A stretch of 64,000 nucleotides of DNA, from positions 1,054,001 to 1,118,000 of the forward strand of contig NZ_CP012673.1 of NCBI RefSeq assembly GCF_002950945.1, in the 5' to 3' direction. Under the pieces are notes generated by a model. That model saw only the letters and a program-made list of their open reading frames with translations, ran no database searches and had not been told where the DNA came from. The stretch's first letter is position 1; every line of letters begins with the position of its first letter. Shown one piece after another: positions 6,316 to 21,565 of the stretch. Position numbers and translations under genes: made by a program. The DNA comes from Sorangium cellulosum (GTDB lineage Bacteria > Myxococcota_A > Polyangia > Polyangiales > Polyangiaceae).

Positions 6316-6696
6316 TCAGGCCGCGCTGATCGGGATCTGACGGGGCTTGAGCGAGGCGCTCTTCGGGAGGTGGATCCGAAGGACGCCGGCCTGGAGCTCG
6401 GCGGAGATCTTCTCCGCGTCGATGCCCTGCGGGACCACGAAGCTGCGGCGGTAGTCCGGCAGGCTCTCCGCGCCGTGCTCGCGCTCGGCCGCCTCGGCGC
6501 GCCGGCCCTCGAAGGTGAGCTCGCCCTTCTCCAGGCGAATGGCCAGCTGGTCCTGCGTCACGCCCGGGAGATCCGCCACGACCAGGAGCTCCTCGGCGTT
6601 CTCGTAGATGTCGACCGCCGGGGGCACGGCAGGGCGCTGCTGGATCTTCTCAGGGCTGCTCTCGTCACGGTTCGTCAGGTTGCGATCGGTGCTCAT
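6316..6696 (-). CDS. Small heat-shock protein (Hsp20/alpha-crystallin)
   Basis: A 126-residue holdase chaperone that would bind unfolding proteins without ATP. The alpha-crystallin domain spans about 25-120 (AVDIYENAEELLVVADLPGV through GVLRIHLPKS) and ends in the IXI-type tail PISAA. ATG 6696 is preceded by AAGGAG at good spacing; the longer frame to 6780 overlaps the upstream gene and lacks conservation. It follows a second hsp20 gene by about 80 bp on the same strand, so the two are probably cotranscribed. Its acidic Glu-rich edge strands differ from the neighbour, which suggests separate partners or hetero-oligomers. Confidence 0.9.
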   Translation of the reverse strand: MSTDRNLTNRDESSPEKIQQRPAVPPAVDIYENAEELLVVADLPGVTQDQLAIRLEKGELTFEGRRAEAAEREHGAESLPDYRRSFVVPQGIDAEKISAELQAGVLRIHLPKSASLKPRQIPISAA

Positions 6697-6776
6697 GTGG
6701 GTTGCTCCTTCCTCGATACATGCCTGTCCGCGTCTCGCGGAACCTCGTTGCTCTCCTCCGATGGCGCGCTCCCTCA

Positions 6777-7241
6777 TCACCGCGCAGTGACCGAGATCTG
6801 CCTCGGCTGCGCCTCGGCCGCCTTGTTCAGCGTCAGCGTCAGCACGCCGTTCTTGAGGACCGCCGAGGTCCTCTCGGGATCGACCTTGCTCGGCAGCGTG
6901 AAGCTCCGGCTGAAACGCACCGCGCCCCGCTCCTTGCGGTGGACGAGATAACCCTCCGGCGCATCCGACTTGCGCTCGCCGCTCAGGGTCAGCACGTCCT
7001 GGTTCAGCGAGATCTGCACCTCCTTCTCCGTCAGGCCCGGCAGCTCGGCCTTGACCACAAGCGCCTTGCCCGTGTCGAAGAGGTGGATGCGCGGGCCCGG
7101 CGTGTACCGGGGCGCCTGGTCGAACTCGCCGCGGAGCGACGCCCGGGGCGCATCGTAGTCCTCGAACAGCCGATCCATGCGCCGGCGCAGCTCATCCATG
7201 ACGGCGAACGTGCGATCGAAATCCGTGTAACGGTTGTACAT
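6777..7241 (-). CDS. Small heat-shock protein (Hsp20/alpha-crystallin)
   Basis: A 154-residue paralogue of the downstream gene. The N-terminal arm contains RRRMDRLFEDYD, a common Hsp20 feature. The alpha-crystallin domain (about 50-150) includes KALVVKAELPGLTEKEV, the arginine-rich RFSRSFTLPSKVDP and GVLTLTLNK, and ends with QISVTAR. ATG 7241 has a strong GGAGG 8 nt upstream. It is the first gene of the pair. I found no sigma-32 or CIRCE-like element upstream, so heat control is unproven. Confidence 0.9.
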   Translation of the reverse strand: MYNRYTDFDRTFAVMDELRRRMDRLFEDYDAPRASLRGEFDQAPRYTPGPRIHLFDTGKALVVKAELPGLTEKEVQISLNQDVLTLSGERKSDAPEGYLVHRKERGAVRFSRSFTLPSKVDPERTSAVLKNGVLTLTLNKAAEAQPRQISVTAR

Positions 7242-7538
7242 GACGACTCCTCCGTGACCCCCGCGCGCGGCGCGCGCCGGGGGCATCACCCGCGGCGCCG
7301 TCACCCTGCTCGCGACGGCCGGTTTGTTGTAGGGTTACGGGACCTTGGCTCCAGGAGCCGGTCTCTTCGCACCGCCCAATCTTCGCACGGCGCCCGGGGT
7401 GTCAAGAGCAGGACCAGGACGCCTTCCCCGGAGAACGCCGGCAGGAAAGCCTGGTAAGAAAGACGTCGCGAACCCGCCGCGGACCCCGCCGAGCAACCCC
7501 CGCGGACCCCGCCGAGCTTCCCCGCAGAACGACCGAGC
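7242..7538. other. Divergent intergenic region, hsp20 pair / redoxin-like gene
   Basis: About 300 bp with no supported ORF. It holds the unseen hsp20 promoter on the minus strand and a short palindrome GGCTCCAGGAGCC near 7349-7361. Confidence 0.45.
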
Positions 7539-7585: not shown

Positions 7586-8161
7586 ATGCAGAACCGTGCG
7601 CCCGTCTCCCGCCGCTCCTGGCGCGCCCGCCTCCTCTCCGTCACCTCGGCCGCAGCGCTGTCCGTCGCGCTCGTGTCGGGCGCCGCGCTCGCGCTGCCTT
7701 CCGAGGGCGACCGGGCGCCGAACGCGCGCGTCGAGGACGCCGACGGCCGCGAGCTCCAGCTCAAGGCGCTGCGGGGCAAGCCGGTCCTCATCGTCTACGA
7801 GGACAAGGACTCGGCGATGCAGAACAAGCCGCTCAAGGACGCCCTGGGGAAGCTCGCGAAGGGCGGCAACTACCGGCGCGCCATCGCGCTCGCGGCCATC
7901 GCCGACGTGAGCTCGTACGATTTCTGGCCGGTGAAAGGGTTCGTGAAGGACGCCATCCGCGAGGAGTCGAGGAAGTTCGGCACGACCATCTACTGCGACT
8001 GGGACGGCACCTTCCGCTCGACCTACCGGCTCCGCCGCGGCGTCAGCAACGTCATCCTCGTCGACAAGGACGGTCGCGTGCTCTTCGCGGCCGAAGGCGC
8101 GCTCAAGACCGAGGCGCAGCAGCGGCTCCTCGACCTGCTCCGCAAGCAGGTCGACGGCTGA
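7586..8161 (+). CDS. Exported YtfJ-like redoxin-fold protein
   Basis: A 191-residue secreted protein: a signal peptide (residues about 1-35, twin Arg followed by an Ala/Leu core ending ALA) and a thioredoxin-like domain starting at EGDRAPNARVEDADGREL. The CXXC active site of thioredoxins is missing; the equivalent loop reads YEDKDSAMQNK. This fits the YtfJ_HI0045 family rather than a thiol oxidoreductase. Three in-frame ATGs exist (7562, 7580, 7586). I prefer 7586 because the apparent -10 box ends at 7577. It converges with the photoreceptor gene, so light or B12 control is an inference from the upstream half-sites. Confidence 0.68.
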   Translation: MQNRAPVSRRSWRARLLSVTSAAALSVALVSGAALALPSEGDRAPNARVEDADGRELQLKALRGKPVLIVYEDKDSAMQNKPLKDALGKLAKGGNYRRAIALAAIADVSSYDFWPVKGFVKDAIREESRKFGTTIYCDWDGTFRSTYRLRRGVSNVILVDKDGRVLFAAEGALKTEAQQRLLDLLRKQVDG

Positions 8162-8174
8162 GGCCGCGAGGGCT

Positions 8175-8230
8175 CCGGCGGACGCCCGCACCGGCGCACG
8201 GGCCGCCGCGCCCGCGCGGTCGTCCGCCGG
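8175..8230. terminator. Palindrome between convergent genes
   Basis: CCGGCGGACG (8175-8184) pairs with CGTCCGCCGG (8221-8230) across a GC-rich 36-nt interval that can fold further. It fills the 78-bp gap between two convergent genes, as expected for a bidirectional terminator, although no U-tract is present. Confidence 0.5.
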
Positions 8231-8239
8231 CGCGCCGGC

Positions 8240-9154
8240 TCAGTTCGTGTCCTTGCGGCGCCGGCGCGCGAGCAGCGCGGACTCGACCTGCGCGCGGATC
8301 TCCGAGATCTCGCCGGACGCCACGAGGCCGCCGCGCGCCTCGATGAACGGGCGGAGCGCCGCCGCAGCCGCGCCGCCCACGATCCAGGCCGCGTCGCGGC
8401 AGGCGTCCGCGTAGGCGTCGATGAGCTCGCGCGCGTTCGAGGGCGGCGGGGGGATGGAGACCGACAGCGCGACGAGATCCGGCGTGAGCGACTCGACCGC
8501 GCGCGCGATCGCGGCGGGCGGGGTCCTCGGGCCGAGCACGACGGAACGGAAACCCCACGAACAGAAGCGCAGGCCGATGCCGAACAACCCGAGCACGTGA
8601 TCCTCGTCGGCGAAGCCGGCGAGCAGGACCCGCCGCCCGCTCTCGCCCGGCTGCGCCAGGCGCAAGAGGTGCTGCAGCGTGGAGCCGAGGACCTGCGAGG
8701 CGAGGTGCTCCTGCGCGACCGTGATCTTCCCCTCGTGCCAGAGATCGCCGATGCGCTCGAGCGCCGGGCCGAGCGCGCGCTCGAAGATGGTCACCGCGGG
8801 GCCGAGCGAGAGCGCGCGGTTGACCTCGGCGTCCAGCCCGTCCGGATCGAAGCGGATCGCGGCCTCGACGATGCGCTCGCTCGCGCCCGCGAACGCGTCG
8901 CCGCCGTTCGTGTGCGCCGTCGCGTGCGGCGCCGCCGTCTCCAGCACCATGCGCGCCGCCTCCGCGGCGGCCACGCCGCCGTTCACGTAGTCGCGCATCT
9001 TCTTGATGACCGCGACATCCTCCTCGCTGTAGAGGCGGTACGCAGACGCCGTGCGCGCTGGTGAAGGCACGCCATAACGGCGCTCCCACGCGCGCAGCGT
9101 CGCCGACGACACGCCACACATCTTCGAGACGGCATGAATTCTGTAGCGGCTCAC
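8240..9154 (-). CDS. carH: CarH/CarA-type B12-binding MerR transcriptional repressor
   Basis: Predicted light-responsive repressor of the adjacent carotenoid genes. From GTG 9154 it is 304 residues. Residues 4-70 form a MerR-type winged helix (RIHAVSKMCGVSSATLRAWERRYG). A four-helix bundle carries the W-x9-EH signature (W139, E149, H150), whose His and Trp cap adenosylcobalamin in characterised CarH proteins. The C-terminal Rossmann domain has EDHVLG, with H186 as the likely lower cobalt ligand. In the family, dark AdoCbl-bound tetramers bind DNA and light splits them. GTG 9154 places the helix-turn-helix where the family has it; the ATG at 9250 would add about 32 Arg-rich residues. It is divergent from crtI. 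Confidence 0.88.
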   Translation of the reverse strand: MSRYRIHAVSKMCGVSSATLRAWERRYGVPSPARTASAYRLYSEEDVAVIKKMRDYVNGGVAAAEAARMVLETAAPHATAHTNGGDAFAGASERIVEAAIRFDPDGLDAEVNRALSLGPAVTIFERALGPALERIGDLWHEGKITVAQEHLASQVLGSTLQHLLRLAQPGESGRRVLLAGFADEDHVLGLFGIGLRFCSWGFRSVVLGPRTPPAAIARAVESLTPDLVALSVSIPPPPSNARELIDAYADACRDAAWIVGGAAAAALRPFIEARGGLVASGEISEIRAQVESALLARRRRKDTN

Positions 9155-9265
9155 GTGGACAACCCTGTTCAAGGTCCGCCGCACCGAGCGCCGCCCGCGC
9201 AGGCCCGGACTCCCGGACCGACGGACAGCGACGCGCACGCTGACCGGCATTGGAGTGTGTTTTCG

Positions 9266-9297
9266 CCTTTGTCAAAGGCTGCGACAAACATTATACT
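9266..9297 (+). promoter_or_regulatory. crtI promoter with palindromic operator-like site
   Basis: TTGTCA (9269-9274) and TATACT (9292-9297) are 17 bp apart, a near-consensus housekeeping promoter. The perfect palindrome CCTTTGTCAAAGG (9266-9278) overlaps the -35 box, and TTTGTC at 9268 is mirrored by GACAAA at 9283-9288. ATG 9305 follows the -10 by 7 nt. This site is not in the 11-bp direct-repeat form seen at crtD/crtE. Confidence 0.6.
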
Positions 9298-9304
9298 CGG
9301 CCTC

Positions 9305-10909
9305 ATGCAAAACACCAGCGCTTCTTCAGCGCACGCAGACGGAGAAGGCGGGCAGCCCGGAGCGGCGCCAGGCAGGGGGGAGCCCACGCGTGAGCCGGGG
9401 CGGCGGGCGGCGGGGGCTCGCCGGGGCAGGCCGCACGCGGTCGTGATCGGCAGCGGGTTCGGGGGGCTGGCGGCGGCCGTGCGGCTCGGGGTGCGCGGCT
9501 ACGACGTCACGGTGGTCGAGAAGCTCGACGAGCCGGGCGGGCGCGCGTACGTGCACCGGCAGGACGGCTTCAGCTTCGACGCGGGGCCGACCGTCATCAC
9601 CGCCCCGTTCCTCTTCGAGGAGCTGTGGAGCCTCTGCGGCAGGCGCCTGGCGGACGACGTCGACCTCCGGCCGGTGACGCCGTTCTACCGGATCCGCTTC
9701 CACGACGGCGCGACCTTCGACTACACGGGCGACGCCGCCGCCATGCGCGCCGAGGTCGCGCGGCTAGCGCCAGGCGACGTCGAGGGATACGAGCGCTTCG
9801 TCCGGATGAGCGAGGCGATCTTCCGCGTGGGGTTCGAGGAGCTCGCGCACGTGCCGTTCGGGTCGTGGGCCGACATGGCGCGCATCGTGCCGGACATGGT
9901 GCGGCTCGAGAGCTACCGCACGGTGTACGGGCTCGTGGCGAAGCACGTGAAGGACGACCGCCTGCGGCAGGTGCTGAGCTTCCACCCGCTGCTCGTGGGC
10001 GGGAACCCGTTCTCGACCACGTCGATCTACAGCCTCATCGCGTTCCTCGAGCGCAACTGGGGCGTGCACTTCCCGATCGGCGGCACGGGCGCGCTGGTCA
10101 AGGGGCTCGTGTCCCTCATCGAGGGCCTCGGCGGCGAGGTCCGGTGCAACGCCGAGGTGCGGCGGATCACCGTGGAGAACGGGCGCGCGCGGGGCGTCGA
10201 GCTCGCCTCGGGCGAGCGGATCGCGGCGGATGTCGTCGTTTCGAACGCGGACTCGGCGTGGACGTACCGGCACCTGGTCGCGCCCGAGGCGCGCAAGCGC
10301 TGGACCGACCGGCGCATCGAGCGGCAGCGCTACTCGATGAGCCTCTTTGTGTGGTACTTCGGGACGCGAAGGCAGTACCCGGACGTCGCGCACCACACCA
10401 TCCTCCTCGGCCCGCGGTACAAGGCGCTGCTCGAGGACATCTTCCAGCGGCACGTGCTCGCAGACGACTTCAGCCTCTACCTGCACCGCCCGACCGCGAC
10501 CGATCCGGCGCTTGCGCCGCCCGGCTGCGACACGTTCTACGTGCTGTCGCCGGTGCCGAACCTGCTCAGCGGCACGGACTGGCCGGCGGTGCAGGAGCGC
10601 TACCGGCGCTCGGTGTCGGCGCTGCTCGAGGCGACGGTCCTGCCGGGGCTCGAGGCGTCGCTCGCGACGTCGCGGCTGCTCACGCCGCAGGACTTCCAGG
10701 ACCGGCTGCTGTCGTTCCGGGGGGCGGCGTTCGGCCCGGAGCCCGTGCTCACGCAGAGCGCGTTCTTCCGGCCGCACAACGCGAGCGAGGACATCGAGCA
10801 CCTCTACCTCGTCGGCGCAGGGACCCACCCGGGGGCCGGCCTGCCGGGGGTGCTCTCGTCGGCGCGTGTGCTGGATCGGGTGGTGCCGGATGCATCGAAG
10901 CTCCTCTGA
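9305..10909 (+). CDS. crtI: Phytoene desaturase, CrtI type
   Basis: FAD-dependent enzyme converting phytoene to lycopene (or neurosporene). The 534-residue protein has the dinucleotide-binding motif VVIGSGFGGLAAAVRL after a 45-residue Ala/Gly/Arg-rich extension, the early CrtI signature GGRAYV...FDAGPTVIT, and the C-terminal LYLVGAGTHPGAGLPGVL motif. I chose ATG 9305, just after the promoter -10; the frame stays open to 9134 across the promoter. It overlaps crtB by 20 bp and heads a crtI-crtB-cyclase operon. It is distinct from the second CrtI-like enzyme at 16805-18397. Confidence 0.93.
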   Translation: MQNTSASSAHADGEGGQPGAAPGRGEPTREPGRRAAGARRGRPHAVVIGSGFGGLAAAVRLGVRGYDVTVVEKLDEPGGRAYVHRQDGFSFDAGPTVITAPFLFEELWSLCGRRLADDVDLRPVTPFYRIRFHDGATFDYTGDAAAMRAEVARLAPGDVEGYERFVRMSEAIFRVGFEELAHVPFGSWADMARIVPDMVRLESYRTVYGLVAKHVKDDRLRQVLSFHPLLVGGNPFSTTSIYSLIAFLERNWGVHFPIGGTGALVKGLVSLIEGLGGEVRCNAEVRRITVENGRARGVELASGERIAADVVVSNADSAWTYRHLVAPEARKRWTDRRIERQRYSMSLFVWYFGTRRQYPDVAHHTILLGPRYKALLEDIFQRHVLADDFSLYLHRPTATDPALAPPGCDTFYVLSPVPNLLSGTDWPAVQERYRRSVSALLEATVLPGLEASLATSRLLTPQDFQDRLLSFRGAAFGPEPVLTQSAFFRPHNASEDIEHLYLVGAGTHPGAGLPGVLSSARVLDRVVPDASKLL

Positions 10910-11837
10910 GGCGTCGGCGGCCGACTTCGCCGCGTGCCGGGCGCTGCTCCGGAAGGGGTCGAAGAGCTTCGCCGCGGCTGCGCTCCTGCTCCCCGCGCGG
11001 GTGCGGGAGCCAGCGGCGGCGTTCTACGCGTTCTGCCGGGTCGCGGACGACGCGGTCGACGAGCTCGGGGAGCGCGCGGCGCCCACGGCGGCCGAGGCGG
11101 CGGTCGCGGCGCTCAGGGAGCGGCTCGGCCGCGCGTGTGCGGGCGCGCCGGACGACAGCCCCGTCGACCGGGCGCTCGCCCACGTCGTCGCGGAGCACGC
11201 GCTGCCGCGCACGTTCCTCGAGGCGCTGCTCGAGGGGTTCGCGTGGGACGCGGAGGGGCGGCGCTACGAGACGCTCTCGGACCTGAACGCCTACGCGGCG
11301 CGCGTCGCCGGGACCGTGGGCGCGACGATGGCGGCGCTCATGGGGGCGCGGGGGCCGGACGCGCTCGCGCGGGCGTGCGACCTGGGCGTCGCCATGCAGC
11401 TCACGAACATCGCGCGCGACGTCGGGGAGGACGCCCGGCGCGGGCGGATCTACCTGCCGCTCGCGTGGATGCGTGAGGCCGGGATCGATCCGGACGGCTT
11501 TCTGGCGCGGCCCGCGTTCGACGAGCGGCTGGGGCGCGTGGTCGCGCGGCTGCTCGCCGAGGCGGAGGCGCTCTACCGGCGCGCGGGCGCCGGGATCCCG
11601 ATGCTGCCGCGCGACTGCCGCGCGGCGATCCAGGCGGCGCGGCTCATCTACGCCGACATCGGGCGCGTGATCGCGCGGAGCGGCTTCGACTCGGTGTCGC
11701 GGCGCGCCGTGGTGTCGCCCGGTCGCAAGGCGTGGCTCGTCCTGCAGGCGCTCGTCCGGCCTGCCGACGGCGAGCGCGAGCACGGCGCGGCGCCGCCGCT
11801 CGACGAGGTCCGCTTCCTCGTGGAGGCGGCGCGATGA
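10890..11837 (+). CDS. crtB: Phytoene synthase
   Basis: Condenses two geranylgeranyl diphosphates head to head to phytoene. The 315 residues show both Asp-rich Mg-diphosphate motifs: CRVADDAVDE (about 48-57) and MQLTNIARDVGED (about 169-181), plus GRIYLPLAWM. The ATG at 10890 lies inside the end of crtI (20-bp overlap), and its stop overlaps the next gene as ATGA, both indicating translational coupling. The family also includes squalene synthases, but the context between crtI and a lycopene cyclase supports phytoene synthase. Confidence 0.94.
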   Translation: MHRSSSEASAADFAACRALLRKGSKSFAAAALLLPARVREPAAAFYAFCRVADDAVDELGERAAPTAAEAAVAALRERLGRACAGAPDDSPVDRALAHVVAEHALPRTFLEALLEGFAWDAEGRRYETLSDLNAYAARVAGTVGATMAALMGARGPDALARACDLGVAMQLTNIARDVGEDARRGRIYLPLAWMREAGIDPDGFLARPAFDERLGRVVARLLAEAEALYRRAGAGIPMLPRDCRAAIQAARLIYADIGRVIARSGFDSVSRRAVVSPGRKAWLVLQALVRPADGEREHGAAPPLDEVRFLVEAAR

Positions 11838-14741: not shown

Positions 14742-15930
14742 ACCGGGAGGTCCGCCAGACGACGGTGCGCGTCGACAGCGCCCGGAGGAACGCCGCGCCG
14801 AGCACGAGGTCGGCGAGGAGCGCGTCGGCGGCCGCGGCGCGGAGCGGCGCGCGCCGGCCGGAGAGGCGCGCGGCGAGCGCGGCGACCGCGACGCGGCTGG
14901 AGACGGCGACGGCCACGGCGAGCAGCGCCGGCGCCGCGGCGATCGGGGCCGCGAGCGCGGCGAGCACGACGATGAGCGGCGTCGCGAAGAAGAGCGCCGG
15001 GTAACTCGCGAGCAGCGCGGGCCGCTGCGCGCGGATGACCGTGATCCAGCGCGCGTAGCGGGCGATCACGTCGCGGAGCGGCCGGCCCGAGGCGAGCGAC
15101 GGGGCGACGACGGCCGCCGCGCCGATGGTCCCGCGCCGGGCGAGGAGGCGGCGCGAGAGCTCCATGTCCTCGCCGAGGTGCGCGGTGAGCGCCGCGAACC
15201 CGCCCGCGCCCGCGAGCGAGCCGGCCCGGACGGCGAAGAGCTTGCCGACGAGGCCGCGCGGGTCGAGCCCGGCGAGCAGGGGGAAGGCGTGCAGCGATCC
15301 GCCGAGCACCGCGGCCGAGGCGCGGTCGCCGAGCGAGCGCGCCGGCGCGACCTCGACCGGCGGCGCCCACACGGCGTCGAGCGGCGCGGGGCGCGCGCCG
15401 TCGGAGAGCGGGCCGAGGAGGGCGTCGAGGTCCACGCCGTCGAGGTCGACGTCGCTGTCCGCGACGAGCACGGCGTCGAACGGCGCGCTCTCCCGGGCGA
15501 CGACCGCGGCGAGCTGCGCCGCCTTGCGGTTCGGGCCGGGGGGCGCGGTGAGCGCGGTGAGCGCGACCTCGGCGGGGATCGCGGCGGCGCGGAGCCTCTC
15601 GGCCGCGGCGGTCGCCGCAGGCAGGGCGCCGTCGGCCGCGTCCGCCACGGCGAAGACGCAGCGCACGGGCGCGGACAGCCGGGCCCCGGCGAGCGAGCCG
15701 AGCGTCCTCTCGAGGTGAGGCTCGGGGCCGGCGCAGGGGCGCACGACGAGGACGCGGAGGGCGCTCTCCGGGACGCCGGGCGAGGGGGCGCCGGGCGAGC
15801 GTACGCCGGGCGAACGTGCACCCGGCGAGAGACGCCGCCCGGCGCGCCGGACGGCTTCGGCGGAGACGCTCGCGACGGCGAGCGCCCAGGCGAGGGGCAG
15901 GAAGGCGGCGGCGTGGAGCAGCGCGCTCAC
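14698..15930 (-). CDS. Membrane glycosyltransferase (ceramide-glucosyltransferase/HpnI-like)
   Basis: A 410-residue GT2/GT21-type enzyme likely to transfer a sugar from a nucleotide donor to a lipid alcohol. An N-terminal membrane helix (about 3-25) is followed by an SPGxR repeat linker, the GT-A domain with the DSDVD metal motif (about 152-156), GEDMELSRRL, the RYARW variant of (Q/R)xxRW, and two C-terminal hydrophobic segments. GTG 15930 overlaps the crtC stop as GTGA, so it is coupled to crtC. Context suggests glycosylation of the CrtC-made hydroxyl, analogous to CruC; this is inference. Its 3' end overlaps the acyltransferase gene. Confidence 0.78.
   Translation of the reverse strand: MSALLHAAAFLPLAWALAVASVSAEAVRRAGRRLSPGARSPGVRSPGAPSPGVPESALRVLVVRPCAGPEPHLERTLGSLAGARLSAPVRCVFAVADAADGALPAATAAAERLRAAAIPAEVALTALTAPPGPNRKAAQLAAVVARESAPFDAVLVADSDVDLDGVDLDALLGPLSDGARPAPLDAVWAPPVEVAPARSLGDRASAAVLGGSLHAFPLLAGLDPRGLVGKLFAVRAGSLAGAGGFAALTAHLGEDMELSRRLLARRGTIGAAAVVAPSLASGRPLRDVIARYARWITVIRAQRPALLASYPALFFATPLIVVLAALAAPIAAAPALLAVAVAVSSRVAVAALAARLSGRRAPLRAAAADALLADLVLGAAFLRALSTRTVVWRTSRFRIDRRGLLREAGA
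15773..15832. repeat. 15-bp tandem repeat, 4 copies, coding
   Basis: Four units related to ACGCCGGGCGAGCGT (15773-15787, 15788-15802, 15803-15817, 15818-15832) encode a five-residue SPGxx repeat between the N-terminal helix and the catalytic domain of the glycosyltransferase. Confidence 0.85.
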
Positions 15931-17006
15931 GCCGACCTCCTCATCCGGAACGGCAGGAGGAACTGCACCCACGGGCTGGCGAAACGGCCGAGCGAGAGCG
16001 CCTCGTGCACGACCGTCGCCGGCTCGCCGCCGAACGTCGCCGCCGCCAGCGAGCGCGCGTAGAACGGCGTGTCCTCGTAGGTGCGAAGCAGCCGCGGCGC
16101 CGTGCCGGGGTCGGCCGCGATCTCCCGCGCGATGCCCCAGGTGGTGTCGCCGAGCGGCCGCGGCGCGAGCGGCGGGAGCTCGCGCGCGCCGCCGGCCGCG
16201 TCGTACGCGCGCGCGAGGAGCAGGCGCGAGCCGTCGCGGCGCCGGACGTCGTACGTGAGGGCGATGCCGTCGGCCCCGAGCGCGCGCGACCACGTCCAGC
16301 GCTCGAAGGCGCGCTCGAGCGGCTCGTCGCCGGCGTTCGTGTCGAGGTAGGCGCTGCCGGAGAAGCGCATCGCCGGGTGGGTGAGCTCGACCTCGGCGCG
16401 CGCGACCGGCGCGATCGGCGCCCAGCGGTGCCGCCCTGCGCCGTCGAGCGCGAGCTCGGCCCGGGCGCCGCGCGCGCCCGCCGCCGCCGGGCGGCGGAGG
16501 CGCACCGTCCCGGCGAGCCGCGACGGCAGCGGCGCGGTGGTCTCGTCGAAGGCGACGCGGAGCTCGTCCCCGGACCAGTCCATCAGGCTCGGGCCGATGG
16601 AGAGCGACCGCGGGGACCTGAAGACGGCGCCGCGCGGACGTTCGGTGAGCGCCCACCGGTCGGCGCGCGGCCCGTACAGCGCCACGTTCATCGCGCAGTG
16701 CATGAGCGGGTCCGCGGGTCCGCGCTCGCGCGCCCTGGCGTAGTACGGCGAGAAGACGCTGCCGAGCATCGCGATGATCGTGATCGCGTGCCGGCGGTCG
16801 TCGCTCACCGCGTCCAGGTACCACCAGGCATAACCGCCGTCCGGGATCTCGAGGTCGAAGCGAGGTCCTCCTGCACGCTCTGCGCTGCGAGCCGCCCGCT
16901 CAGCGCCGCCATCGGGACGCCCGCCCCCGGGTGCGCGCTCCCGCCCGCGAAGTACAGGCCCCGGAGCTTCGAGCGCGACGGGGGACGCGAGAACGGGGAG
17001 TTCCAC
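15927..17006 (-). CDS. crtC: Carotenoid 1,2-hydratase (hydroxyneurosporene synthase)
   Basis: Adds water across the terminal psi-end double bond, giving a 1'-hydroxyl. Diagnostic segments are GGYAWWYLDAVSDD, HAITIIAMLGSVFSPYYARAR, HCAMNVALYGPRADRW, SLMDWSGDELRVAFDE and the C-terminal HEALSLGRFASPWVQFLLPFRM. The start is a problem: the conserved GGYAWWY segment lies inside the 3' end of crtD, and there is no in-frame ATG, GTG, TTG or CTG between GTG 17006 (used here, 359 residues, about 200-bp overlap) and a CTG inside the motif. A GTG at 16808, overlapping the crtD stop as GTGA, would give 293 residues but lose that motif. The stop overlaps the glycosyltransferase start. Confidence 0.8.
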   Translation of the reverse strand: MELPVLASPVALEAPGPVLRGRERAPGGGRPDGGAERAARSAERAGGPRFDLEIPDGGYAWWYLDAVSDDRRHAITIIAMLGSVFSPYYARARERGPADPLMHCAMNVALYGPRADRWALTERPRGAVFRSPRSLSIGPSLMDWSGDELRVAFDETTAPLPSRLAGTVRLRRPAAAGARGARAELALDGAGRHRWAPIAPVARAEVELTHPAMRFSGSAYLDTNAGDEPLERAFERWTWSRALGADGIALTYDVRRRDGSRLLLARAYDAAGGARELPPLAPRPLGDTTWGIAREIAADPGTAPRLLRTYEDTPFYARSLAAATFGGEPATVVHEALSLGRFASPWVQFLLPFRMRRSA

Positions 17007-18397
17007 CCGTGAGAGACCGGCCCGTACAGCGCGCCCCCCGTCGCCGGGAACAGCCGCTCGAAGTCCGCCGGCGTGGTCACCACCGGCGAGGGGCCCGCGA
17101 TCTTCAGCGACAGGCCGGACCGCTGCAGTTGATGGAACAAGCGCTGCTCGCATGCGTGGATCTCCGTGGATGAGGGGACGTGGATATCACCCGTCGCAGG
17201 GGCGTTGAGAATGAAGAACAGGCGCTCTCCAGCACGCGCGCCCCCCCCCGAGGCGTCCCGGCCCGGCTCGGCCGCGGGCGGCCCGGCGGGCCCGGGCGAC
17301 GGCTCGTTCCAGCGGTCCTCGGCGCAGAGGTAGACGGTAGGATCGCGCGGCACGGCGGACCGCTCGAAGAGGTCGCCGAACTCGGCCTCGTAGTCGCGGG
17401 AGAAGAAGACGTTGTGCCGGACGAGGGGGAAGCCGCTCACCTCGGCGACGAGCGCCCAGGTCATCGCCGAGAGCGAGCGCGGGACGTCGGCCGGGGCCTT
17501 GCGGGCGGCGCGCTGGCCGAAGAGGCCGCTCCGCAGCGCCGCCGGGTCGGCGTTCATCACGATCGCGTCGGCCGGGATGCGCTCGCCGCCCTCGAGCACG
17601 ACGCCGGTGGCGCGGCCGCGGCCATCCTCGATGGCGGCCACGTGGGCGCCGCAGCGGATCGTCGCGCCGGCGCGGGTCGCGGCCGCGGCGAGCGCCTCGG
17701 CGACCCGGTACATCCCGCCCTCGGGGAACCAGACGCCCTCGCGCTCGACGTGCGCGATCACGCTCAGCGTCGCCGGCGCGAGGAACGGCGAGGAGCCGCA
17801 GTAGGTCGCGTACCGGCCGAACAGCTGCCGCAGGCGCTCGTCCTGGAAGAAGTCGCAGAGCGCCCGGTAAAGGGTGCGGTGCCCGTCGATCTTCATCACC
17901 CCGCCAAGGCCGAGGCTGCCAGCCGTGCTCAGGAGGGTCGACAGGGTGGGCCGCTCCGCGCGCAGGAACGGCCCCTCCACGACGTCGAAGATCTCGCGCG
18001 CGTACCGGCAGAAGCGGCGGTACCCGTCCGCCTCCCGCGGCCCGGCGAACGCGCCGATCGCGTCCGCGGTGCGCTCGACGTCGGCGAACAGGTCGAGCGT
18101 CGCGCCGTCCGGCCAGGCGTGGCGCGCGAGCGTCTCCGCCGGGCGGAGCGGCACCTGGTCGTCGAAGCGGAGCCCGAGCGAGCCGAAGAGCTCGTCGAAG
18201 ACCCACTTCATGGTGAGCACCGTCGGGCCCACGTCGATGCGGCGGCCGTCGAGCGACACCTCGCGCATCTTTCCGCCGACGCGAGCCGCCCGTTCGAGTA
18301 GCACGACCTCGAGCCCGCTCGACGAAAGGAGCGCCGCCGCGGTCAGCCCGCCGATGCCCCCGCCGATCACCACGACGCGTCCTCTCCTGTCCTGCAT
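16805..18397 (-). CDS. crtD: CrtI-type desaturase, probable CrtD
   Basis: A 530-residue FAD-dependent carotenoid desaturase. It shows VVVIGGGIGGLTAAALL at residues 8-24, GGKMREV...DVGPTVLTM, HVEREGVWFPEGGMYRV and the C-terminal LYFAGGSAHPGAGVPMAALSGRLAAQ. It differs from the first CrtI and sits directly upstream of crtC, the usual partnership of 1-hydroxycarotenoid 3,4-desaturase. Expected reaction: introduction of the 3',4' double bond after CrtC hydration. ATG 18397 lies 7 nt after a -10-like box. The last about 20 residues (after VQEDL) look unconserved and overlap the crtC N-terminal coding sequence. It is divergent from crtE. Confidence 0.88.
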   Translation of the reverse strand: MQDRRGRVVVIGGGIGGLTAAALLSSSGLEVVLLERAARVGGKMREVSLDGRRIDVGPTVLTMKWVFDELFGSLGLRFDDQVPLRPAETLARHAWPDGATLDLFADVERTADAIGAFAGPREADGYRRFCRYAREIFDVVEGPFLRAERPTLSTLLSTAGSLGLGGVMKIDGHRTLYRALCDFFQDERLRQLFGRYATYCGSSPFLAPATLSVIAHVEREGVWFPEGGMYRVAEALAAAATRAGATIRCGAHVAAIEDGRGRATGVVLEGGERIPADAIVMNADPAALRSGLFGQRAARKAPADVPRSLSAMTWALVAEVSGFPLVRHNVFFSRDYEAEFGDLFERSAVPRDPTVYLCAEDRWNEPSPGPAGPPAAEPGRDASGGGARAGERLFFILNAPATGDIHVPSSTEIHACEQRLFHQLQRSGLSLKIAGPSPVVTTPADFERLFPATGGALYGPVSHGWNSPFSRPPSRSKLRGLYFAGGSAHPGAGVPMAALSGRLAAQSVQEDLASTSRSRTAVMPGGTWTR

Positions 18398-18404
18398 GGC
18401 CCGG

Positions 18405-18432
18405 AGTGTACCCGCCGCATTTGCTTTGTCTA
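18405..18432 (-). promoter_or_regulatory. crtD promoter
   Basis: On the minus strand, TAGACA (18432-18427) and TACACT (18410-18405) are 16 bp apart. The start codon at 18397 is 7 nt beyond the -10. The -35 is the first repeat of the CarH-like operator, so repressor binding would block it. Confidence 0.55.
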
Positions 18433-18465
18433 GGCTTTGTTTAAGCGATGTTCAAACCATTGACA
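18427..18465. promoter_or_regulatory. CarH-type operator: four 11-bp-phased half-sites
   Basis: TGTCTA (18427), TGTTTA (18438), TGTTCA (18449) and TTGACA (18460) begin exactly 11 bp apart. The first three match TGTnnA, the complement of the TnnACA half-site arranged as 11-bp direct repeats in characterised CarH operators. The array lies in the divergent crtD-crtE promoter region; its outer copies coincide with the two -35 boxes. Confidence 0.78.
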
Positions 18466-18488
18466 ATGCTTCGAACCTCATGTAAAGG
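18460..18488 (+). promoter_or_regulatory. crtE promoter
   Basis: A perfect -35 TTGACA (18460-18465) is followed after 17 bp by a weak -10 (TAAAGG, 18483-18488). ATG 18495 is 6 nt further on. The GGTG just before the ATG could also act as a weak ribosome binding site. The -35 is the last repeat of the CarH-like array. Confidence 0.5.
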
Positions 18489-18494
18489 TGGGCG

Positions 18495-19406
18495 ATGGAT
18501 TCCGATCGCAGGATCGAGCGTGTTCTTCTCGTCGCGATTGAGTCGCTCTCGTCTCCCGCGTCGCCGCCCGGGCTCCTGGCGGCGACGCACCACGCCGTCT
18601 TCCCCGGAGGCGCGCGCATCCGGCCGCGGCTGTGCCTGGCGGTCGCCGCGGCGTACGGCGATCCGGCGCCCGAGGTGACCGACGCCGTGGCGGCGGCGGT
18701 GGAGCTCATCCACTGCGCCTCGCTCGTCCACGACGATCTGCCGTGCTTCGACGACGCGCCGCTCCGGCGCGGGCAGCCGTCGGTGCACCGCGCCTTCGGG
18801 GAGCCGATCGCCGTGCTCACCGGCGATCAGCTGATCGTGCTCGCCTTCGAGGCGCTCGCGCGCGGCGCGCTCCACGCGGTGGCGAGCGGGGTCTCGGACG
18901 CGCGCAAGGCGGTCCGGTTCTTCGAGGTGCTCGCGGCCGGCGTGGGGATGCCGCAGGGGATCATCGCCGGGCAGGCGTGGGAGTCGGAGGCGAAGGTGCC
19001 GATCGCGGCCTACCGGCGCGCGAAGACGGGGGCGCTGTTCGAGGCGGCCGCGGTCCTCGGCGCGCTCTCGGCGGGCCAGGACGGGGGAGCCTGGGGCGCC
19101 CTGGGGCAGCGCATCGGCGAGGCGTACCAGGTCGCGGACGACGTGCTCGACCTGATCGGACAGCCGGAGGACATGGGCAAGCTGGCCGGGCGCGACGGCG
19201 CGCTCGGGCGGCCCAACACGGCGATGGAGCTCGGGCTCTCCGGGACGACGCGGCTGCTGCAGCGGCTCATCCAGGATGCGCTGGAGTCGGTGCCGCCGTG
19301 CCCGCGGGCGGACGACGTGCGGTCGTGGGCGACCGAGCTCGGGGACAGGCTCATGAGGGCTTGCCGGAGCCGGGCGGCGGGGGTCTCGGCGACGAGCTCT
19401 GCGTAG
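18495..19406 (+). CDS. crtE: Geranylgeranyl diphosphate synthase
   Basis: Trans-isoprenyl diphosphate synthase supplying GGPP to CrtB. The 303-residue protein has the first Asp-rich motif in HDDLPCFDD (about 78-86), followed by LRRG, and the second in QVADDVLDLIGQPEDMGK (about 213-230), with KTGALFEAA between. The chain length (GGPP rather than FPP) is inferred from context. It is transcribed away from crtD under the CarH-like operator, and a nested inverted repeat follows 24 bp after its stop. Confidence 0.92.
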   Translation: MDSDRRIERVLLVAIESLSSPASPPGLLAATHHAVFPGGARIRPRLCLAVAAAYGDPAPEVTDAVAAAVELIHCASLVHDDLPCFDDAPLRRGQPSVHRAFGEPIAVLTGDQLIVLAFEALARGALHAVASGVSDARKAVRFFEVLAAGVGMPQGIIAGQAWESEAKVPIAAYRRAKTGALFEAAAVLGALSAGQDGGAWGALGQRIGEAYQVADDVLDLIGQPEDMGKLAGRDGALGRPNTAMELGLSGTTRLLQRLIQDALESVPPCPRADDVRSWATELGDRLMRACRSRAAGVSATSSA

Positions 19407-19429
19407 GGGGCGTCGGTTCGGAGCGGCCC

Positions 19430-19586
19430 GGCCCGCGGCGAGGGGGTTCGTCGCGCGGTGTGGGGCCCCGCCGAACTCGTCTGGGACATTCGATGCGCAG
19501 CGTGCCGTGCACGCTGCACATCGAATGTCCCAGACTCAGACACGGCCCATCCCCACACCGCGCGACGAACCCCCTCGCCTCGGGCC
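19430..19586. repeat. Nested inverted repeat downstream of crtE
   Basis: Outer arms 19430-19465 and 19551-19586 are 36 nt long with one mismatch. Inside is a second hairpin, 19480-19504 with 19510-19534: a 25-nt stem with one mismatch around a 5-nt loop. The whole 157-bp unit could terminate crtE, form a cruciform, or be a mobile palindromic repeat. The remaining 19587-19795 shows no gene. Confidence 0.85.
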
Positions 19587-19795
19587 TACGGTTTTGACCT
19601 GGGGCCGTCCGAGACTGCTGGGGTAGGGGGGCGTCGTTGGCTGCGGGGGCGCCCTGGCTCGACGAAGGGGCTTCAGGGTGGCATTGTCGGCGGGCCTCTC
19701 CGCATCCTGTCGCGGCGGGCGTGGGACGGGGAACGGCGCGGGGGGCGGCAGCCGGTCAGAGCGGCTCGGGCCGTGATCCGCCATGGGGAGGGGGG

Positions 19796-21565
19796 ATGAG
19801 GGGGATCCGGGAGCAACACGCCACCATCGTGTCGCGCAAGCTCGAGGACGAGAGTCCAGGGGGGATGCGCGAGGCGATCTCCTCCGTCGAACAGCTCGCG
19901 CGGGTCGCGCGAGGACGCCTGAGAGATCGGGTGGTGGACGTCGGAGCAGCGGCGAGCGCCGGGATCCGAGGGGCGCCGAGGAGCGGAGGGCTCGCCCGGA
20001 CGGGCAACGGCGCGGTGCCGCTGCACGTGTCGCGGCCGCTGCTCGATCGACACCAGCTCGCAGGGCACGCGCTCGCCCACCTCTACGCGGAAATCGAGGC
20101 GTGCCGCGCGCTCGACGGGTGGGCCTCCGAGGTCGGCGGCGCGGCCAGGGCCGTGGCCGAGGCGCACGCGGGGGCGCTGCTCCTCGCGCTGCGCGGCGGC
20201 GTCGACCTGGGCGGCGGCGAGATCGCGCCGCTCGGAGAGCTCGAGCTGCGCGACGACGAAGTGGCCAAGGCGATCGGACACCCCGCCATCGCGGCGTGGG
20301 CGCGCGACGCCGGGGCCGGGGCGGCCGTCGGCGCGCTCGCGCACCTGGCCGCCGAGGAGGGGATCCCCGAGGGCGGCGGCGTCGAGGACGAACGTGTCGG
20401 CTGGATCCGGCACAACATGCGCGACTTCGTCGAACGCCTCGTCGAGCCGCTCGCGCCGGAGATCCACCGGCGCAACGGGCTCATCCCCGAGTCGATCATC
20501 CGCCGCATGGGGGATTTCGGGGTGTTCCGGCTGGCCATCGCGCCCGAGCACGGCGGCGATGGGCTCGGCGTGGCCGCCATGGTCGCCGCCGTCGAGGAGC
20601 TCGCGCGCGGATCGCTCGGCTTCGGCGTGCTCGCCATGACCACCGCGATCGCGGCAGACCTGCTCGCCCGCGCCGGGACGGAGCTGCAGCGAAGGACCTG
20701 GATGACGCGCATCGGCGCCGGCGAGGCGCGCTGCGCCCTCGCCTTCTCGGAGCCCGCGTACGGGTCGGACCTCGCCCGCGTGGTCACGCGCGCCGAGCGC
20801 CAGGGCGACGGCAGCTACCTCCTCACGGGCAAGAAGGCGTGGGTCACCGGCGCGTCCCGCGCGGACCTCGTGTTCCTCCTCGCCAAGACCACGGCGCCGA
20901 GCGGACAGGGGCACCAGACGCTCGGCCCCAGCCTGTTCGCCGTCGCCAAGCGGCGCGGGGCGCCTGGCGACGACTTCCCGGACGCAGGGCTCGGGGGCAC
21001 CGAGATGCGCGCCCTCGGGCAGCGCGGGATGGGGCACTACGAGCTCCGGATCGAGGGGCTGCACGTCGGGCGCGAGGCCCTGCTCGGCGAGCGCGAGGGC
21101 GAAGGGATCGCCCAGATCCACCGGGCGCTCGTGGTGGGGCGCATCTACGCGGCCGCGTGCGGGGTGGGCGCGGCGCAGGCCGCGCTGGAGCAGGCCCTCG
21201 CGCGGGCCAGGGCGCGCGTGCAGTTCGGGGCGCCGCTCCTCTCCTTCCCGCGCGTGGGGCACCGGCTCGGGGGGATCGTCGCGCGCGTCTCGGCCGCGCG
21301 GCAGCTCACGCGCGCCGCCGCGCAGGCGGCGGACGCGGGGCGGCCGTGCGAGCTCACGTCGGCGATGGCGAAGCTCTTCTCGGTCCGCGCAGCGTGGGAC
21401 GCCGCCGACGCCTGCATGCAGATCCACGGGGCGAACGGGTACGCGGAGGCCTCGCCCTCGGCCCGCCTCCTGCTCGACGCGCGCAGCCTCTTCGTCCACA
21501 TGGGCACGCAGGAGGTGCTCGCCCACGGCATCGCGCGCGCCCTGCTCGAGGGCGCGCACCCCTGA
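19796..21565 (+). CDS. Acyl-CoA dehydrogenase-like protein with N-terminal extension
   Basis: A 589-residue flavoprotein-like enzyme. The first about 200 residues form an Ala/Arg-rich helical region not found in ordinary dehydrogenases. The rest is a full acyl-CoA dehydrogenase fold: PEHGGDGLG, ALAFSEPAYGSD, LTGKKAWVTGASRADL, ARARVQFGAPL and MQIHGANGYAEASPSARLLLDA. Where many members have the catalytic Glu before the GT motif, this protein has Met (VHMGTQ, M569), so dehydrogenation by the usual base is doubtful unless Glu is supplied elsewhere. ATG 19796 follows a GGGGAGGGGG ribosome binding site. It leads a run with MaoC hydratase and methylmalonyl-CoA epimerase genes. Confidence 0.82.
   Translation: MRGIREQHATIVSRKLEDESPGGMREAISSVEQLARVARGRLRDRVVDVGAAASAGIRGAPRSGGLARTGNGAVPLHVSRPLLDRHQLAGHALAHLYAEIEACRALDGWASEVGGAARAVAEAHAGALLLALRGGVDLGGGEIAPLGELELRDDEVAKAIGHPAIAAWARDAGAGAAVGALAHLAAEEGIPEGGGVEDERVGWIRHNMRDFVERLVEPLAPEIHRRNGLIPESIIRRMGDFGVFRLAIAPEHGGDGLGVAAMVAAVEELARGSLGFGVLAMTTAIAADLLARAGTELQRRTWMTRIGAGEARCALAFSEPAYGSDLARVVTRAERQGDGSYLLTGKKAWVTGASRADLVFLLAKTTAPSGQGHQTLGPSLFAVAKRRGAPGDDFPDAGLGGTEMRALGQRGMGHYELRIEGLHVGREALLGEREGEGIAQIHRALVVGRIYAAACGVGAAQAALEQALARARARVQFGAPLLSFPRVGHRLGGIVARVSAARQLTRAAAQAADAGRPCELTSAMAKLFSVRAAWDAADACMQIHGANGYAEASPSARLLLDARSLFVHMGTQEVLAHGIARALLEGAHP

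Follow-up and report, generated by a model that had tools for sequence, protein, structure and literature searches.

In Sorangium cellulosum, the gap between crtE and crtD, known as P crt Sc2, contains three tandem repeats, and the gap between crtI and carH, P crt Sc1, contains one repeat and two pseudo-repeats (Perez-Castano et al. 2022, PMC9304148). Both regions, the second of which corresponds to the carH-crtI gap described below, were bound by a CarH chimera in a manner that depended on AdoCbl and on darkness, with footprints of about 34-38 bp that map to three repeats. Darkness together with B12 led to repression of both the crtE-crtD and the crtI-carH pairs, and the expression of crtE and crtD in S. 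cellulosum depended on B12 and light. The authors proposed that a single site governs two divergent promoters, and they take the view that even CarA recognizes direct, not inverted, repeats (PMC9304148). The CarH consensus is given in a review as nAnnTnnACAn (PMC8156234). A literature search of open-licence papers found no further paper on Sorangium operators.

The window analysed here, a stretch of 64,000 nucleotides of S. cellulosum DNA, carries crtD and crtE on either side of a 97-bp intergenic region. The crtD gene (16805-18397, minus strand) is assigned to the 1-hydroxycarotenoid 3,4-desaturases by NCBIfam NF045637 (634.8 bits, cut-off 580). Its neighbour (18495-19406, plus strand) is a crtE-type polyprenyl diphosphate synthase that matches PF00348 with an E value of 1.2e-44 and scores 133.1 bits on the CrtE model NF045685, under the cut-off of 460. 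Among the 80 relatives of this CrtE that were listed, records outside the Myxococcota mostly bear Pseudomonadota names, and the purple phototrophs Ectothiorhodospira and Rhodospira appear at about 48-60% identity; the likeness of the protein sequences suggests carotenoid genes of shared ancestry or transferred ones.

An initial annotation of this DNA had described four repeats in the crtD-crtE gap, starting at 18427, 18438, 18449 and 18460. These positions are right and the steps between them are exactly 11 bp; the first three hexamers, TGTCTA, TGTTTA and TGTTCA, fit TGTnnA exactly, as claimed. The fourth, TTGACA, is not a further tandem repeat, as it fails TGTnnA and carries two of the four fixed bases when read in the direct register. 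Read in the sense of crtD, on the minus strand, the predicted half-sites are TnnACA: TAGACA for half-site 1 (18427-18432), TAAACA for half-site 2 (18438-18443) and TGAACA for half-site 3 (18449-18454). TTGACA (18460-18465), which lies 11 bp from half-site 3 and is the -35 element of crtE, fits TnnACA on the plus strand and is therefore inverted relative to the other three. Judged from its bases, the fourth element is best described as an in-step, inverted -35, possibly a fourth half-site, and the putative operator as three repeats in tandem accompanied by an inverted TnnACA. Measured against a threshold of at least three tandem 11-bp TnnACA units on one strand, or fewer together with pseudo-repeats, the array holds three, all of them exact and on the minus strand; a fourth unit in tandem is not something that every CarH operator must have. 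The triple is rare. With up to one mismatch allowed, the triple turns up once in the window and in none of 100 shuffled versions of the whole window; the exact triple is found once in the 14,557,589-bp genome, where the reversed-pattern control has none; and among 100,000 dinucleotide-shuffled versions of the 97-bp intergenic region, 2 hold a triple on one strand or the other.

The array is interleaved with promoter elements. The proposal that the first repeat doubles as the -35 of crtD agrees with the promoter scan, in which TAGACA-N16-TACACT is a candidate matching at 9 of 12 positions; the operator would overlap an element of a promoter that it controls, half-site 1 being the crtD -35. The candidate crtD -10, TACACT (18405-18410, minus strand), lies 16 bp from TAGACA and 7 nt before the crtD ATG. 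The corresponding proposal for crtE stands in part: TTGACA is a perfect -35 on the plus strand, but the scan called no crtE promoter, because its -10, TAAAGG or AAAGGT, is weak. The likelier of the two is TAAAGG (18483-18488, plus strand), 17 bp from TTGACA, with the ATG 6 nt on; AAAGGT would be 18 bp from TTGACA. We counted the weak crtE -10 in this genome against the CarH-operator explanation. Upstream of crtD, all six Sorangium genomes have TAGACA or TGGACA and N16, followed by TACACT in five and by TAAGCT as the -10 in genome G001. At the place of the crtE -10, four Sorangium relatives have, at the same distance, AAAAAT, AAGACT, AAAACT and GAAGCT, and in genome G004 the element is AAAACT, shifted one base further.

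The initial annotation had also pointed to a photoreceptor gene with a Wx9EH signature about 9 kb away, and this gene is indeed present: carH (8240-9154, minus strand) starts 9.27 kb from half-site 1. Its predicted product combines MerR DNA-binding and B12-binding domains (PF13411, PF00376, PF02607 and PF02310, all above their cut-offs) with RAWERRY, an instance of the RxWERRY motif, and with WHEGKITVAQEH, which contains the Wx9EH signature. It also carries ExHxxG; set against the extended motif D/ExHx2G/P-x41-SxT/V-x22-27-GG, it reads EDHVLG, x41, SVS in place of SxT/V, then GG. The nearest solved structures are those of CarH (5c8d, 5c8e and 5c8f, together with 3whp; E value 2.6e-26). The NCBIfam CarH equivalog model is the top-scoring model for the protein at 134.7 bits, which does not reach the cut-off of 400 bits; proteins of the Sorangiineae and Nannocystineae that have been classed as CarH share 32-39% identity with M. 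xanthus CarH (PMC9304148). CarH is present in five of the six Sorangium genomes and was not found in G005, an assembly of about 1270 contigs, where the best match has an E value of 4.1e-9; we weighed this, like the CarH model score under its cut-off, against the CarH-operator explanation. Two adjoining genes for Hsp20-type small heat-shock proteins (6316-7304) lie about 1 kb past the 3' end of carH.

Divergent from carH is crtI (9305-10909, plus strand), a member of the phytoene desaturase family by TIGR02734 (632.3 bits, cut-off 238.1). A domain match to squalene/phytoene synthase lies in the frame 10347-11837. In the carH-crtI gap, the block TTTGTCAAAGGCTGnGACAAACATTATACT (9270-9297) is nearly invariant across the five Sorangium genomes read. 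A predicted crtI promoter, TTGTCA-N17-TATACT on the plus strand, has its -35 starting at 9269 and is followed 7 nt later by the ATG. A second putative CarH operator in the same block, also read on the plus strand, consists of TGTCAA at 9270, GCGACA at 9281 and TATACT, the crtI -10, at 9292. The block is probably the crtI promoter merged with a second, weaker CarH operator.

The start codons of crtD (18397), crtE (18495) and crtI (9305) lie 6 to 7 nt past the predicted -10 boxes, and the corresponding distance in the relatives measured is 6 to 9 nt. Because such distances are too short to fit a ribosome-binding site, we predict that the carotenoid mRNAs under CarH control, those of crtD, crtE and crtI, have no leader or almost none.

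To describe variation within the genus we compared six Sorangium genomes, this one included. Five of the six align with no gap over half-site 1 through TTGACA. Across these five, all 12 of the fixed half-site bases are invariant, compared with 9 of the 21 other bases among the first 33 (Fisher p 0.0008), and two of the six variable nn positions are invariant. The six bases of TTGACA are likewise invariant in the five gap-free genomes, and TTGACA is found in all six. The exception is G003, in which 1 bp has been lost between half-sites 2 and 3, giving a 10-bp step that we counted against the operator explanation, and in which half-site 3 is degenerate (TGATCA). Five of the six Sorangium genomes each hold a single copy of a pattern made of two tandem half-sites and, 33 bp on, an in-step TnnACA; there is none in G003 and none in the reversed control.

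The layout is more variable beyond the genus. A CrtE relative (E value of 1e-50 or lower) was found in 29 of 108 genomes of the family, and we read the upstream regions of 24 loci from 23 non-Sorangium genomes, one extra match, G119, being left out. TTGACA accompanied by half-sites in an array was found at 10 of the 24 loci. In G036, which belongs to another genus, the sites lie at -32, -21 and -11 relative to TTGACA, with the middle one degenerate, and half-sites 2 and 3 are spaced 10 bp apart, which was again counted against the operator explanation. The sites of G008 lie at -33, -22 and -11, and those of G101 include an exact site at -33 and degenerate ones at -22 and -11. The six genomes of genus g15 have TGTCTA at -35, TGTTCA or TGTACA at -24, and, on the crtE strand, a TnnACA at +11 in which nn is CC in four genomes, AA in one and CA in one. 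G129, from yet another genus, has TGTCAA at -21 and TGTACA at +11. Two further genomes, G121 and G096, have half-sites in tandem without TTGACA, and a comparable array was absent at 12 of the 24 crtE loci read. The crtE upstream region L181, from G121, shows two TnnACA and, 19 bp further on, a tandem run of three TGTnnA, an order of polarities that is the reverse of that in Sorangium. From the named CrtE loci listed, 80 in number, the upstream sequence was read for seven (L032-L036, L067 and L108); L019 and L020 were also read upstream and showed no array. With 10 loci carrying a TTGACA array, two a tandem array without TTGACA and 12 no array, the layout is plastic across genera, in line with the published work (PMC9304148). 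The initial annotation had made conservation of the 11-bp phasing in relatives a test of the operator. Phasing is exact in five of six Sorangium genomes, off by 1 bp in G003 and mixed in other genera; since it is kept in some relatives and lost in others, the outcome of that test is itself mixed.

The repeats are rare and conserved, two -35 elements are in place and carH is nearby; the operator is almost surely genuine and CarH almost surely its reader. We consider it very probable that the site is the orthologue of P crt Sc2, a three-repeat operator for AdoCbl-dependent CarH that represses crtD and crtE in the dark. The shared CarH operator of the initial annotation is supported by the sequence, by its conservation in the genus and by the published S. 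cellulosum experiments (PMC9304148), with three repeats where four had been claimed. In the dark, an AdoCbl-loaded CarH oligomer would occupy the three half-sites. Transcription of crtD would be blocked directly by CarH on half-site 1, because that half-site is the crtD -35, and RNA polymerase would be kept off crtE by steric overlap with CarH, because half-site 3 ends 5 bp before the -35 TTGACA. In light, breakage of the Co-C bond would release CarH, and both promoters would fire. We infer that regulation in this genome is the same as in the published strain and that the promoters lie exactly where they are placed here. This interpretation is essentially published already, and the one novel element is a hint of mixed polarity in the operator; the comparison extends the published carotenoid light switch to further members of the genus and identifies its fixed bases.

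That hint leads to the strongest alternative, which is possible but, in our estimate, unlikely: the operator may hold four CarH half-sites of mixed polarity, three in tandem facing crtD and one inverted on the crtE -35. A CarH tetramer would then place its fourth DNA-binding domain on TTGACA itself, and the published "pseudo-repeats" would be partly inverted half-sites. Against this, TTGACA is the standard -35 and would match TnnACA in any case. In its favour, TTGACA lies 11 bp from a neighbouring site in G036, G008 and G101 as well as in all six Sorangium genomes, although the neighbour in G003 and G101 is degenerate. The site at -11 in G008 is turned round to TATACA, and its site at -22, TGTACA, fits either way. 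A second TnnACA on the crtE strand follows TTGACA by 11 bp in the six g15 genomes, and TGTACA stands there in G129; the step from the crtD-side site to TTGACA, however, is 24 bp rather than 22 in g15, and 21 in G129. The crtE array of L178 adds slightly to the case for mixed polarity. The inner element of the carH-crtI gap, situated between the -35 and the -10, has ACA as its last three bases on the crtI strand in all eight genomes scored, and the inverted reading scores higher in six of them and ties in two; the element was taken at +11 in five genomes and at +10 in three, and G101 was left unscored as its anchor pattern was unmatched.

A survey of spacings bears on the same question. It covered 41 carH neighbourhoods (the window and 40 others, from 41 of 59 CarH genomes) under 24 genus labels, with G003 given a label of its own; the counts quoted are unfiltered, a run with a hand-picked GC filter of 0.62 having been set aside. 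For half-site pairs on the same strand the peak falls at a spacing of 11 bp, with 39 pairs under 13 labels where the background mean is 3.25. Convergent pairs have their peak at 11 bp too, with 16 pairs under 9 labels against a background mean of 1.80 labels and a maximum of 5. When self-complementary sites such as TGTACA are removed, 9 convergent pairs under 6 labels remain, while the background averages 1.62 labels and does not exceed 4 (Poisson 0.0065). Of these six labels, g1 and g32 represent crtD-crtE sites, and L226 and L234 have pairs upstream of carH, at distances of about 90 and 140 bp; the pairs of L221 and L235, however, are about 4 kb away from carH and may have arisen by chance, and the genomes in the test are not independent of each other. 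An excess at 11 bp, though a weaker one, is also seen for divergent pairs (5 pairs, 4 labels against 1.02); it falls to 2 against 0.85 without self-complementary sites. The published footprints of about 34-38 bp cover three repeats, not four, and the authors' view that direct repeats are what even CarA reads also argues against an inverted fourth site (PMC9304148). The footprinted protein was a chimera with the T. thermophilus oligomerization domain, and its footprint may therefore misrepresent native Sorangium CarH.

A broader proposal, which we hold a shade less probable again, is that CarH operators across the Polyangiaceae combine half-sites of both polarities within a single 11-bp register. 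At divergent carotenoid promoters each -35 would bear a half-site facing its own gene, TAGACA for crtD and TTGACA for crtE, and one oligomer would bridge the two. Such an oligomer may use the DNA-binding domain that is left unbound in the CarH-DNA complex of T. thermophilus. If true, mixed polarity would add inverted repeats to the direct ones that this B12 photoreceptor is known to read, and it would change searches for CarH sites and the view of how the oligomer is seated on DNA.

Control by a different regulator, either a PpsR/CrtJ-type repressor or a dimer on a 27-bp imperfect palindrome centred on 18463, is very improbable. PpsR/CrtJ proteins recognize the consensus TGT-N12-ACA. The purple phototrophs among the 80 CrtE relatives listed, where names outside the Myxococcota are mostly those of Pseudomonadota, lend this proposal some appeal; however, no PpsR/CrtJ protein in the genome exceeds the family cut-off (top score 42.8 bits against 275.4) and no TGT-N12-ACA occurs within 15000-20000 or 8000-10000, and we rejected PpsR/CrtJ on both counts. 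The palindrome, which was found by eye, matches at 11 of 13 positions around the crtE -35, a score reached in 29 of 20,000 shuffles, but the same score is seen in two of six Sorangium genomes and only 3 to 8 of 13 positions match in the remaining four, and it was rejected as a conserved operator. Least credible of all is that the tandem repeats are chance or mere promoter sequence: TAGACA and TTGACA do both look like sigma-70 -35 elements, but neither half-site 2 nor half-site 3 is a promoter element, the fixed bases of both are nonetheless invariant in five genomes, and the triple is unique in the whole genome.

Compared with the characterized operators described in PMC9304148, the very probable three-repeat CarH operator resembles S. 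cellulosum P crt Sc2 most closely: both have divergent crtE and crtD, three tandem 11-bp repeats, carH in the cluster and promoter elements that overlap the operator, and they differ in that the array described here sits in another Sorangium genome. The proposed equivalence is based on gene order and repeat count, not on the published operator sequence. Like the T. thermophilus CarH operator, the array has three tandem TnnACA units, one of which holds a -35, but the Sorangium array would serve two divergent promoters. It shares its 11-bp step with the operators of B. megaterium, which have four tandem repeats, or three and a pseudo-repeat, whereas here the fourth element is inverted and is a -35. 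In M. xanthus P crt (DR1-dr2-DR3-DR4-dr5), as here, the crtE -35 TTGACA lies within a TnnACA unit; there, however, the repeats and the -35 are both on the crtE sense strand, whereas in Sorangium the three repeats face crtD (PMC9304148).
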